A stretch of 64,000 nt of DNA. Source: Ensifer adhaerens. Its GTDB lineage: Bacteria > Pseudomonadota > Alphaproteobacteria > Rhizobiales > Rhizobiaceae. This document shows positions 56,276 to 59,939 of this stretch, piece after piece. The notes beneath the pieces are model-generated. The model did no database searches. It had not been told where the DNA came from and worked only from the letters and a program-made list of their open reading frames with translations. The stretch lies in contig NZ_PNFP01000001.1 in the NCBI RefSeq assembly GCF_002940685.1, positions 1 to 64,000 of the forward strand, read 5' to 3'. The position numbers and the translations under genes are program-made. How positions within the stretch are numbered: the stretch's first letter is position 1; each line of letters starts with the position of its first letter.

Positions 56276-57025
56276 ATGTCACGTTTGCAGAACAAGACCG
56301 CACTCATCACCGGAGGCACCAGCGGCATCGGTCTCGAAACCGCACGCCAGTTCATCGCCGAGGGCGCCCGGGTCGCCGTCACCGGCACCAATCCGAAGAA
56401 CATCGCCGAGGCCCGCGCCGTACTCGGCGAGGCCGCCCTGATCATCGAGGCCGATGCCGGCAATGTCGCCGGTCAGGCGGCCGTTGCCGAAAAAATCCGC
56501 GCCGCCTTCGGCACGCTCGACATCCTGTTCGTCAATGCCGGCATCGCCAGGCTGCAGCCGATCGAAGCGTGGGACGAGGCAAGCTTCGACCGGTCGCTCG
56601 CCATCAACCTCAAGGGGCCGTATTTCCTGATCCAGGCGTTGCTGCCGGTGTTTTCCAAGCGTGCCTCGGTCGTGCTCAACACCTCGATCAACGCGCATAT
56701 CGGCATGCCGACTTCCAGTGTCTATGCACTGACCAAGGCAGGCCTGCTCTCTCTCGCACGCACGCTCTCCGGCGAACTCATTGGTCGCGGCATCCGGGTG
56801 AACGCCGTCAGCCCCGGCCCGATCCGTACGCCGCTCCATGACGGCCACGCCCCGACGCGGGAGCAGAACCAGCAGGTGGTCGATGCCATCGCCGCGCAGA
56901 TCCCGCTCGGCCGCTTCGGGGACGCGAGCGAGATCGCCAAGGCCGTCGTCTTCCTGGCCTCGGACGAAGCCACCTTCACCGTTGGCGCCGAGCTGATCGT
57001 CGATGGCGGCATGGCGACGCTGTAG
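56276..57025 (+). CDS. Short-chain dehydrogenase/reductase
   Basis: A 249-residue classical SDR. Cofactor motif TGGTSGIG (about 13-20), NAG at about 88-90, catalytic Ser in NTSINAHIG, and YALTK (Y-x3-K) at about 149-153 are all present. VDGGMATL is the normal C-terminal end. The basic residue pattern after the glycine motif suggests NADP(H) preference but is not decisive. It is divergent from lysR, which probably controls it. The substrate is unknown. Confidence 0.93.
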   Translation: MSRLQNKTALITGGTSGIGLETARQFIAEGARVAVTGTNPKNIAEARAVLGEAALIIEADAGNVAGQAAVAEKIRAAFGTLDILFVNAGIARLQPIEAWDEASFDRSLAINLKGPYFLIQALLPVFSKRASVVLNTSINAHIGMPTSSVYALTKAGLLSLARTLSGELIGRGIRVNAVSPGPIRTPLHDGHAPTREQNQQVVDAIAAQIPLGRFGDASEIAKAVVFLASDEATFTVGAELIVDGGMATL

Positions 57026-57128
57026 GCAGCGTTTCGGCCAACAGGCACGAGAGCGCGATCATCCAGCGCTGCGGGTCCGGCCGGCCCGCGGCGCTGTCGC
57101 GTTGCCGTCCGTGCCCCATCGCCTGCCG

Positions 57129-57157
57129 TTGGCATCGACGGCGGAGAAGAGTATATT
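57129..57157 (+). promoter_or_regulatory. Sigma-70-type promoter of DUF1326-DUF2182 unit
   Basis: TTGGCA (57129-57134) and TATATT (57152-57157) are separated by exactly 17 bp, close to consensus for a rhizobial housekeeping promoter. The predicted start gives a leader of about 70 bases before the DUF1326 gene. Confidence 0.65.
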
Positions 57158-57232
57158 TTTCCATTCTAATGAAAGGCATCCGTTTGCGCGGAAACCGCGA
57201 GACGAACACCGATCAGATCCCGGGAGGAGACG

Positions 57233-57868
57233 ATGACGAGTGTCAGATGGATGATGAAGGGGCGCGAGTTCATACACTGCAATTGCGCCTATGGCTGCCC
57301 CTGCCAGTTCAATGCCCTGCCGACGCAAGGCCATTGCAGCGCCGTGGGCGCCTTCGAAGTCGAGGAAGGCTATCACGGCGATACGCGCCTCGACGGGCTG
57401 CGGGGCGGCCTGATTGCCGCCTGGCCGGGGGCGATCCACCAGGGGCGGGGGCAGGTGGTGCCGATCGTCGATAGCCGTGCCTCTGACGAACAGCGCGGCG
57501 CGTTGCTGCGCATCATGAGCGGCGAGGATACGGAGCCCGGCGCGACCTTCTTCCAGGTCTTTGCGACCACGTTTGAGACCATGCACGATCCGGTCTTTGC
57601 CGAGATCGACTTCGAGGTCGACATCGGCGCCCGAACGGCGCGACTGAATGTGCCGGGCTGGATCGTCGCGCGCGGCGAGCCGATCCTCAATCCCGTCACC
57701 GGCGCCGCCCATCACGCACGCATCAACCTCCTCCACGGCTTCGAATACGATCTCTGCGAGGTCGGGCGCGGATGGGCCGATACGAAGGGGCCGCTGACTT
57801 TGGCGCTTGCCGATTCGCATGCCCATTTCGCCCGGATGCATTTGACCGAAAGCGGCGTGGTCCACTGA
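57233..57868 (+). CDS. DUF1326 protein with Cys-rich N-terminal motif
   Basis: A 211-residue soluble protein of the DUF1326 family. The N-terminus carries FIHCNCAYGCPCQFN (about 13-27), a C-x-C-x3-C-x-C cluster plus a histidine, able to bind a soft metal. GGAGGAGACG precedes the ATG, a strong site. There is no signal peptide, so it is probably cytoplasmic. It is followed 4 bases later by a DUF2182 membrane protein, a pairing frequent in proteobacteria. No function is established. I suggest metal handling, which is inference. Confidence 0.85.
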   Translation: MTSVRWMMKGREFIHCNCAYGCPCQFNALPTQGHCSAVGAFEVEEGYHGDTRLDGLRGGLIAAWPGAIHQGRGQVVPIVDSRASDEQRGALLRIMSGEDTEPGATFFQVFATTFETMHDPVFAEIDFEVDIGARTARLNVPGWIVARGEPILNPVTGAAHHARINLLHGFEYDLCEVGRGWADTKGPLTLALADSHAHFARMHLTESGVVH

Positions 57869-57872
57869 CCGG

Positions 57873-58748
57873 ATGAAGGATACGGCGCTCGAAACCCTGC
57901 TCAGGCGTGACCGCGTCGTCGTCGTGGCGGCGCTGGTCACGCTGACGGCCGTAAGCTGGCTCTACGTCCTGTGGCTGGCGTCGGCCATGGACATGACCGC
58001 TCCCCCGGCGTCTTCCGGCAGCATGGATATGGGCCCTGGCATGGACATGGATATGCCCATGGACATGCCAATGGGGGCTGAAGAAGGCGCGATGGCGTCG
58101 ATGGCGAGCGCCGTTGCCGCGCCCTGGACCGCTGCGACCTTTGCCTATGCCTTCGTCATGTGGGCGGTGATGATGGTCGGCATGATGGTGCCGTCGGCGA
58201 CGCCGATGATCCTGCTCTACGCCCGTGTCGGCCGCCAGGCGGCCCAACAGGGCAAGCCCTTTGCCGCCACCGGCTTCTTTGCCGCCGGTTACCTGTCAGC
58301 CTGGTTCCTGTTCGCCCTTGTCGCCGTTCTCGGGCAATGGCTGCTGGATCGCTCCCTGTTGCTCACGCCGGCGCTTGCAAGCGTCAGTGCGGTTCTCAGC
58401 GGTATCGTGCTCGTCGCCGTCGGCCTGTTCCAGTTCACGCCGCTCAAGGATCGCTGTCTCCGCCAATGCCAGGCGCCGCTGCTCTTCATCCAGAAGCACG
58501 GCGGCTTTCGCAAGGAAGCAGGCGGCGCCTTCGGTCTCGGCGCGCGGCATGGCCTTTATTGTGTCGGCTGCTGCTGGGCGCTGATGGCGCTTCTCTTCGT
58601 CGGCGGGGTGATGAACGTGCTGTGGATCGCCGCCATCGCCATCTTCGTGCTCGCGGAGAAAATCGTACCCGGCGGCAGGGTCCTGTCCCGCATCGCCGGA
58701 ACTGCGCTCGTCATGGCCGGGGCTTGGCAGCTTGCGGCCCTGGTCTGA
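57873..58748 (+). CDS. DUF2182 membrane protein with Met-rich loop
   Basis: A 291-residue integral membrane protein of the DUF2182 family (predicted metal-binding). The first helix (about 17-38) is followed by a periplasmic loop with 12 methionines among residues 39-77 (repeats of MDM and MPMDM), then a Met-rich helix VMWAVMMVGMMVPSATPM. Conserved cysteines occur in DRCLRQCQAP and HGLYCVGCCWALM. About six helices in total. Met-rich extracellular segments are common in copper proteins. It is co-transcribed with the DUF1326 gene (4 bases apart). Function remains unknown. Confidence 0.85.
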   Translation: MKDTALETLLRRDRVVVVAALVTLTAVSWLYVLWLASAMDMTAPPASSGSMDMGPGMDMDMPMDMPMGAEEGAMASMASAVAAPWTAATFAYAFVMWAVMMVGMMVPSATPMILLYARVGRQAAQQGKPFAATGFFAAGYLSAWFLFALVAVLGQWLLDRSLLLTPALASVSAVLSGIVLVAVGLFQFTPLKDRCLRQCQAPLLFIQKHGGFRKEAGGAFGLGARHGLYCVGCCWALMALLFVGGVMNVLWIAAIAIFVLAEKIVPGGRVLSRIAGTALVMAGAWQLAALV

Positions 58749-58808
58749 TACAAAAGCGCCGCGCAACCCTAGGCGCGCGGCGCTTCAGAACTCGTCAGGC
58801 TGGAAGCC

Positions 58809-59939
58809 TTAGTCGCTCAGCGTATCGAAGAAATCCTTCATCCGGGCAAAGAAGCCGGTCGATTCCGGATTGTTGTCCTTCGACGAGATCTGCTCGAATT
58901 CCTGCAGCAGTTCGCGCTGACGCTTGGTCAGCTTCTGCGGCGTTTCGATCTGGATCTGGATGTAGAGATCGCCGGATTGCGCCGAGCGCAGCACCGGCAT
59001 GCCCTTGCCCTTCAAGCGGAACTGCTTGCCGGCCTGGGTGCCCTCGGGAACCGTGACGCGCGACTTGGTGCCGTCGAGCGTCGTCACGTCGAACTTGCCG
59101 CCAAGCGCGGCCGTCGTCATCGAGATCGGCACGCTGCAATAGAGATCGGCGCCGTCACGCTGGTAGAACTCGTGCGGCCGGACCGAGAGGAAAATGTAGA
59201 GGTCTCCCGCCGGCCCGCCGCGAAGGCCGGCTTCGCCTTCGCCCGAAAGGCGGATGCGGGTGCCGTCCTCGATGCCGGCCGGAATGTTGACCGAAAGCGT
59301 GCGCTCTTCGGTGACCCGGCCCTGGCCGTGGCACTTGCCGCAGGGGTCGGTGATCGTCTGGCCGCGTCCGCCGCAGGTGGGGCAGGTGCGTTCGATCGAG
59401 AAGAACCCTTGAGCGGCGCGCACGCGGCCGGAACCGTGACAGGTGCCGCAGGTCTTGGGGCTGGTGCCGGGTTTGGCGCCGGAGCCCGTGCAGACGTCGC
59501 AGGTGATTGAGGTCGGAACGCGGATCTGCGCGGTCTTGCCGGAAAACGCTTCCTCGAGCGAGATCTCCATGTTGTAGCGAAGATCGGCGCCGCGCTCGCG
59601 GCCGCCTGTCGAGCGCCGCTGGCGCCCGCCGCCCATCATCTCGCCGAAGATGTCCTCGAAGATGTCGGAGAAGCCGCCGGCGCCACCGCCACCGAAGCCG
59701 TTGCCCATGCCGCCCTGCTCGAAGGCCGCGTGACCGTAGCGGTCGTAGGCCGCGCGCTTCTGCGGGTCCTTCAGCATCTCATAGGCTTCGTTGATTTCCT
59801 TGAAGGTCTTCTCCGCTGCCGCGTCGCCGGGGTTCTTGTCCGGATGATACTTCATCGCGAGCTTGCGGAAGGCGCTCTTCAGCTCCTTTTCGTCGGCGTT
59901 CTTGGCAACACCAAGCGTTTCGTAGAGATCACGTTTCAT
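58809..59939 (-). CDS. dnaJ: Chaperone protein DnaJ
   Basis: A 376-residue class I co-chaperone. The J domain (1-70) contains the HPD motif (YHPDKNPGD). A Gly/Phe-rich region (about 72-100, [12 protein letters not shown]) follows, then four CxxCxGxG zinc repeats ([32 protein letters not shown]; about 148-220) and the C-terminal substrate-binding domain. It stimulates DnaK ATPase and delivers unfolded proteins. It follows dnaK on the same strand across a 251-base gap that contains a terminator, so it may have its own promoter. Confidence 0.97.

Follow-up and report, generated by a model that had tools for sequence, protein, structure and literature searches.

Chaperones of the SCO1/SenC type insert copper into cuproenzymes, and those encoded in Streptomyces tyrosinase operons, which share with PpoB2 the copper loading of tyrosinase, go by the name MelC1-type. 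Among the closest described systems is PpoB2 of Marinomonas mediterranea. According to the consulted portion of its description (PMC2855505), this protein is encoded with the tyrosinase PpoB1 and is involved in copper transfer to PpoB1, does not transfer copper to the laccase PpoA, differs in structure and mechanism from the Streptomyces tyrosinase-operon chaperones, and was regarded by its authors as the first member of COG5486 to be given a physiological role. The gene ppoB2 is termed a copper chaperone in the text seen of a second publication (PMC8523701). Closer to the organism studied here, the Sinorhizobium meliloti genes smc02859-smc02860 lie downstream of dnaJ, and their products are called 'proteins of unknown function' in the consulted part of PMC10055731. 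By position these two genes constitute the same operon as the one described below, convergent with dnaJ, an identity deduced by comparing gene order with S. meliloti 4H41 (L139).

The window, that is, the whole stretch of 64,000 nucleotides of Ensifer adhaerens DNA that was analysed, contains a DUF1326 gene followed after 4 bp on the same strand by a gene of the PpoB2 family, with the following features.

57129..57157, forward strand: sigma-70-like promoter of the pair, TTGGCA-N17-TATATT, kept with constant spacing in 15/15 Ensifer/Sinorhizobium loci
57223..57227, forward strand: ribosome-binding site GGAGG, recognised from sequence and invariant in a 14-row upstream alignment
57233..57868, forward strand: DUF1326 gene (PF07040; 211 aa, without hydrophobic leader), the soluble partner
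57278..57304, forward strand: C16-x-C18-x3-C22-x-C24, probable metal site; motif found in 42 of the 43 ORFs from HMM-found loci
57335..57337, forward strand: C35, a fifth cysteine (PTxGxC), invariant in a 31-row family alignment; a following Cys in 41 of the 43 ORFs
57873..58748, forward strand: PpoB2-family gene (PF09948, formerly DUF2182), membrane protein of 291 aa
57987..58103, forward strand: loop of residues 39-77 with 12 Met, predicted to be periplasmic; enrichment lineage-specific
58158..58193, forward strand: helix-2 motif MWxxMMxxMMxP, residues 96-107, with W97, M100, M104, M105 and P107 invariant
58455..58469, forward strand: CLxxC form (C195, C199), predicted to lie on the cytosolic face
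58560..58574, forward strand: CxxCC (C230, C233, C234) after H226 in helix 5, from alignments

Both genes were confirmed at these positions, and their products matched the Pfam profiles above the curated cut-offs (PF07040, E 4e-50, 170.8 bits against 25; PF09948, E 5e-65, 219.4 bits against 28.7). NCBIfam yielded no family for the DUF1326 protein and, for the membrane protein, only a match well short of the cut-off, searches by sequence returned no relative of solved structure for either (E up to 1), and no structured RNA matched Rfam at gathering score between 56900 and 59000. An earlier interpretation made from the letters alone (the sequence-only reading) had stated that it knew of no proven function for either family. 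This was mistaken for the membrane protein, as Pfam names PF09948 'PpoB2, copper chaperone'; the pair is real, well conserved and half explained by this missed precedent. The window protein thus falls in the same named family as Marinomonas PpoB2 (COG5486), the comparison being by family and description, and Marinomonas PpoB2 is likewise described as a transmembrane protein involved in copper transfer in the consulted portion of PMC2855505. Unlike the Marinomonas gene, which forms an operon with a tyrosinase gene, the window gene has DUF1326 as its operon partner, with no adjacent cuproenzyme; the window PpoB2 is a family member, but no tyrosinase lies in its operon to form a PpoB1-PpoB2 arrangement. 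Unlike the SCO1/SenC chaperones, neither window protein matches that family.

The pair is flanked by an SDR oxidoreductase gene and by dnaJ-dnaK, with dnaJ convergent (dnaJ and dnaK were named by eye and from the consulted part of PMC10055731); a LysR gene is also among the window neighbours. No CsoR, Cu-ATPase or multicopper oxidase copper resistance gene adjoins the pair in the window. Proximity to dnaKJ is shared by 15/15 Ensifer/Sinorhizobium loci among the best 80 of 548 relatives, and the closest named genome among the matches listed is E. adhaerens L18, whose DUF1326 protein is 98% identical.

The proposal that the pair has its own near-consensus promoter was borne out, TTGGCA-N17-TATATT being the only sigma-70-like match in the 3 kb from 56500 to 59500, where 0.3 would be expected. 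Among the best 80 of 548 loci, the element GTTGGCA-N16-GTATA was found upstream of 15/15 Ensifer/Sinorhizobium orthologues with constant spacing, at a distance from the start codon varying from 77 to 205 bp, and a relaxed pattern of it in 0/65 other loci (up to 260 bp upstream). The relaxed pattern was also absent from 2.46 million background letters, both strands counted, and the stricter GTTGGCAT-N13-17-GTATA occurred once in the whole genome. Given this distribution, the element looks like a genus-level promoter of the operon rather than a regulon signal. A regulon behind the promoter was rejected, since the strict pattern occurs only once in the genome. Mesorhizobium carries another conserved element, of TATAT type, at the matching place. 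No known metal-regulator box was recognised by eye in the promoter region.

We then surveyed the genome neighbourhoods of the pair, as the sequence-only reading had suggested, and found a close DUF1326-PpoB2 partnership in two arrangements. Among 150 genomes of the order, DUF1326 occurred in 39, PpoB2 in 62 and both in 38, and 46/53 DUF1326 genes lay within 2 kb of a PpoB2 gene on the same strand, two of the 55 DUF1326 rows being omitted as below cut-off. Type A, the arrangement of the window (DUF1326 then PpoB2), accounted for 23 DUF1326 genes at 22 PpoB2 genes, and type B (PpoB2 then DUF1326) for 23; 29 of the 74 PpoB2 matches, a total that includes three below cut-off, were solo. Pairing also held in a phylum sample of 299 genomes, which partly overlaps the order sample: all 31 genomes with DUF1326 also hold PpoB2, and 41/46 DUF1326 genes adjoin PpoB2 (32/36 in the phylum genomes absent from the order sample). 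Among close relatives, 79/80 loci were paired (best 80 of 548 confirmed loci). These counts bear out the claim that the two genes form a true partnership. Plasmids extend the pair to Betaproteobacteria, Actinomycetota, a cyanobacterium and haloarchaea: of 66 plasmid records, 40 were listed and 20 examined, picked for diversity, and in 13 of the 18 regions that carry annotation DUF1326 adjoined PpoB2, one pair being divergent. PpoB2-family genes were also seen on three putatively viral contigs of a viral collection (IMG/VR; L219, L220 and L221).

Phylogenetic analysis separated DUF1326 into two deep clades, one of type A and the other of type B together with a small group of A order, termed A2 (100/100). 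Eighteen B-type DUF1326 proteins and two solo ones formed a single clade (100/99), while the PpoB2 partners of type B came from several lineages, with at least three label changes forced by well-supported branches. The pairing was thus made anew on more than one occasion, and this points to a functional bond rather than mere inheritance. For the window type, the shared neighbours were synteny blocks changing with genus (52 of the best 80 of 548 loci), and no conserved neighbour was found in the neighbour clusters inspected; judged by these gene orders, the window type seems to be a self-contained module. The same clusters held no conserved regulator beside the window type, leaving the earlier suggestion of sensing unsupported, and a sensing or regulatory role was rejected on this ground.

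Type B had a different context. Within the order sample, 10/23 B pairs lie at most 10 kb from a copper amine oxidase gene, 8 of them within about 1 kb and all convergent, compared to about 0.03 expected by uniform placement, and these pairs span six families of the order. None of the 23 type A genes was near a copper amine oxidase over the same distance and sample. At the level of whole genomes, the enzyme was commoner than in the 150 genomes overall (37/150) both in A genomes (10/21, P = 0.014) and in B genomes (12/23, P = 0.003), with relatedness uncorrected in both comparisons. No copper amine oxidase was seen within 10 kb of a pair in the phylum sample. The window genome gave no match to copper amine oxidase, and this enzyme was rejected as a client there. 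As far as searches go, both the close DUF1326-PpoB2 partnership and the association of this partnership with copper amine oxidase are new. On this genomic evidence we favor the view that the pair is probably a two-protein copper-delivery module, in which a PpoB2-type membrane copper carrier and a cytosolic Cys partner load copper enzymes. Against this view speak the lack of a copper gene beside the window type and of a copper amine oxidase match in the window genome.

A second copper enzyme, tyrosinase, accompanied PpoB2 in some genomes where DUF1326 was missing. In the phylum sample, 4/4 genomes with only PpoB2 above cut-off encoded a tyrosinase, compared to 22/299 overall (P = 2e-5), a post hoc grouping in which two of the four genomes belong to one family and which omits two genomes whose PpoB2 match fell below cut-off (G082, G327). 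Two of the four have tyrosinase-PpoB2 operons with the tyrosinase gene upstream and a gap of about 10 bp or shorter, a layout like that of the Marinomonas operon. Genomes with DUF1326 were not enriched for tyrosinase in this sample (4/31, P = 0.26). Since only 1/21 PpoB2-only genomes above cut-off in the order sample has a tyrosinase (G112), the link is not general; this result leaves the odds of the delivery reading unchanged, because that reading rests on the family precedent and on the pairing. The one tyrosinase match of the window genome is on another contig, near a SCO1/SenC-domain protein; there, the genes for tyrosinase, a HEAT-repeat protein and the SCO1/SenC-domain protein follow one another on the same strand (G000:C5:70483-73729; L233 4484-7730), possibly as a separate copper-loading set. 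With these two proteins beside it, the tyrosinase is an unlikely client of the pair in the window genome.

Plasmids carrying PpoB2 alone placed it beside copper genes or cuproenzymes in 3/5 regions: one Mycobacterium avium plasmid with CsoR, Cu-ATPase and multicopper oxidase, a second M. avium plasmid with Cu-ATPase and a heavy-metal-responsive regulator, and a third plasmid with tyrosinase and multicopper oxidase. Of the remaining two regions, one is a fragment and the other, on a Paracoccus seriniphilus plasmid, has genes for a selenium-binding-family protein, a 2Fe-2S protein and PpoB2 in a row (L230 3896-6471); a copper-dependent methanethiol oxidase belongs to the selenium-binding family. 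Copper or heavy-metal genes or tyrosinase were found within 6 kb of 3/13 plasmid pairs, and no copper gene was annotated over that distance for 10/13, annotation being incomplete.

Part of this context would also suit detoxification, in which PpoB2 and its Cys partner bind or export an excess of copper or of another soft metal such as silver or mercury. Besides the resistance genes next to solo PpoB2 on the two M. avium plasmids, the Rhodococcus WAY2 pair is near genes for an HMA protein, a P-type ATPase and a metal-sensitive regulator, a Microvirga pair lies 4.4 kb from a pump of the CusA/CzcA family, and on pHG1 of Cupriavidus necator H16 a gene for a GDCCVxC-domain (seleno)protein begins 42 bp after the pair (L209 6595-6822). 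We nevertheless regard detoxification as rather unlikely: copper amine oxidase is faced by 10/23 pairs of the B arrangement, the window type has neither an adjoining metal regulator or pump nor, by eye, a known metal-regulator box, and the one studied relative, PpoB2, feeds an enzyme according to the consulted portion of PMC2855505.

The soluble partner carries the CxCx3CxC cluster noted in the sequence-only reading, which stands as C16-x-C18-x3-C22-x-C24, together with the following C35, which that reading had missed. The 43 ORFs behind the cysteine counts include two pieces of one broken gene: the single ORF without the cluster is its 3' piece, and the other piece carries the motif. In this gene (G126:C1:1258049-1258584; L082), the part with the Cys motif is in a different reading frame from the rest, and it is likely a pseudogene or a sequencing error. 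The best-80-of-548 set was gathered by pattern and was therefore not used for cysteine conservation. No hydrophobic leader precedes the motif in any motif-bearing DUF1326 ORF. We found no published function or metal measurement for DUF1326 in the literature searched by family name or accession, and we take its metal binding to be putative.

Four closely spaced cysteines can bind zinc or an iron-sulphur cluster. The CxCx3CxC cluster would accordingly suit a structural zinc or iron-sulphur site or a redox-active thiol centre, with PpoB2 having a role unrelated to copper delivery, and the window genome's solo DUF1326 gene among denitrification genes and the Paracoccus PpoB2 gene after that of a 2Fe-2S protein point the same way. 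The Met motif within the partner's helices and the copper-enzyme neighbours of relatives speak against such a role, which we consider improbable. The solo DUF1326 gene, the second of the window genome, is located at G000:C3:227570-228259 on the reverse strand (L079 7393-8082), where the neighbouring ORFs, named by eye, are norE-, norC- and norB-like, NnrU-like and hemerythrin-like; among loci L063 and up, the only other DUF1326 gene near norB, norC and norE matches is in L161.

The DUF1326 protein was modelled with confidence as a mostly beta structure (pLDDT 93.2, pTM 0.90), with residues 21-30 at about 70. Its best solved fold matches were acetoacetate decarboxylases and decarboxylase-like enzymes, with Z 9.1-9.8, rmsd 3.5-4.4 and 147-159 residues for the top ten in VIA, and E 2e-4 with TM-scores of 0.29-0.45 in Foldseek. 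These matches could indicate an enzymatic role for DUF1326, with an acetoacetate-decarboxylase-like barrel and a substrate unrelated to metals; PpoB2 would transport or protect something for this enzyme. Acetoacetate decarboxylase, however, uses a Schiff-base lysine, and no conserved Lys column exists in the 31 DUF1326 rows, where conservation is strongest for Cys, Gly and Pro. The TM-scores are low for such an assignment, and VIA gave best Z values of 7 to 8 even for models without a clear match. An enzymatic role thus seems very improbable. With no lysine conserved in those rows, the matches give a hint about the fold, which by itself would not establish membership of the superfamily.

For the membrane partner, the count of 12 Met in 39 residues (39-77) proved exact and was reached by only 3/20,000 shuffles of the same protein. 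The weight that the sequence-only reading had placed on this loop was nonetheless not upheld. In the 42-residue stretch that precedes the helix-2 region, the median Met number was 8 for 78 close relatives of the best-80-of-548 set, compared to 3.5 for 14 wider type A loci, 3 for A2 and likewise for solo PpoB2, and 2 for B; these counts left out L183 (a split ORF, one of 79 close relatives) and two other loci without the motif. Across these sequences, the loop is a trait of the lineage and not general to the family. Conservation lies instead in the core motifs, of which the window protein carries MWxxMxxxMMxP, CxxxC, CxxCC, GxMN and EK. Loose patterns recovered [MV]WxxMxxxMMxP in 55, the CxxxC form in 56, CxxCC in 54, GxMN in 56 and EK/ER in 57 of 57 PpoB2 loci, only 20 of which have the full double MMxxMM of the window. 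Widespread loss of Met and Cys residues among family pairs, which the earlier reading had named as evidence against itself, was therefore seen for the loop Met and not for the core Met and Cys motifs.

The PpoB2 model (pLDDT 81.6) contains seven helices of membrane-spanning length, and no credible fold relative was found (Foldseek best E 0.75; VIA best Z 5.0, below the level counted meaningful for helical proteins). Placement of Lys and Arg in the model suggests that the N-terminus, the Cys loops and EK are cytosolic and the Met loop periplasmic. Taken together, the family name, the Marinomonas precedent and the copper-gene neighbourhoods of relatives favor a soft metal, above all copper, as the earlier interpretation had proposed, whereas its sensing role and its reliance on the 12-Met loop find no support. 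We consider it highly likely that the pair handles copper in some way, and probable that it delivers copper to an enzyme; for this very pair, the metal would be copper by extension from its relatives.

Under the preferred reading as a copper-delivery module, Cu(I) would be caught by the Met-rich periplasmic loop of PpoB2, passed along a ladder of Met residues in helix 2 (M96, M100, M101, M104, M105) and handed over, at the cytosolic face, to a cluster of Cys and His residues (C195, C199, H226, C230, C233, C234), or it would travel in the reverse direction. Cytosolic DUF1326, with CxCx3CxC and C35, would exchange copper with the inner face of PpoB2 and so couple it to the copper pool of the cell or to a client enzyme. 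The path of this relay, its direction, its client and the topology of the pair are all presumptive. By eye, the tyrosinases beside solo PpoB2 (G112, G330 and a short Rhizobium leguminosarum ORF) and a copper amine oxidase beside solo PpoB2 (L121) start without a signal peptide, whereas the copper amine oxidases beside B pairs have signal-peptide-like starts in all readable cases (8 of 10). This contrast in protein starts, from small numbers, suggests that DUF1326 goes with exported clients. A bolder proposal, which we advance as speculative, is that DUF1326 represents a novel type of copper metallochaperone with an acetoacetate-decarboxylase-like barrel and a five-Cys Cu(I) site, docking on the cytosolic face of PpoB2 to form a transmembrane Cu(I) relay. 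PpoB2 alone would then supply cytosolic enzymes (tyrosinases and the copper amine oxidase without signal peptide), PpoB2 with DUF1326 would supply exported copper amine oxidases, and DUF1326 would decide the direction.

In our judgement, little is understood of how copper reaches enzymes other than those of the respiratory chain. The pair, which occurs in Proteobacteria, Actinomycetota, a cyanobacterium and haloarchaea, joins a family with a single genetic precedent to a partner for which we found no published role. At the loci facing a copper amine oxidase, the activity of this enzyme can be assayed directly in the presence and absence of the pair, which opens a domain of unknown function to testing.
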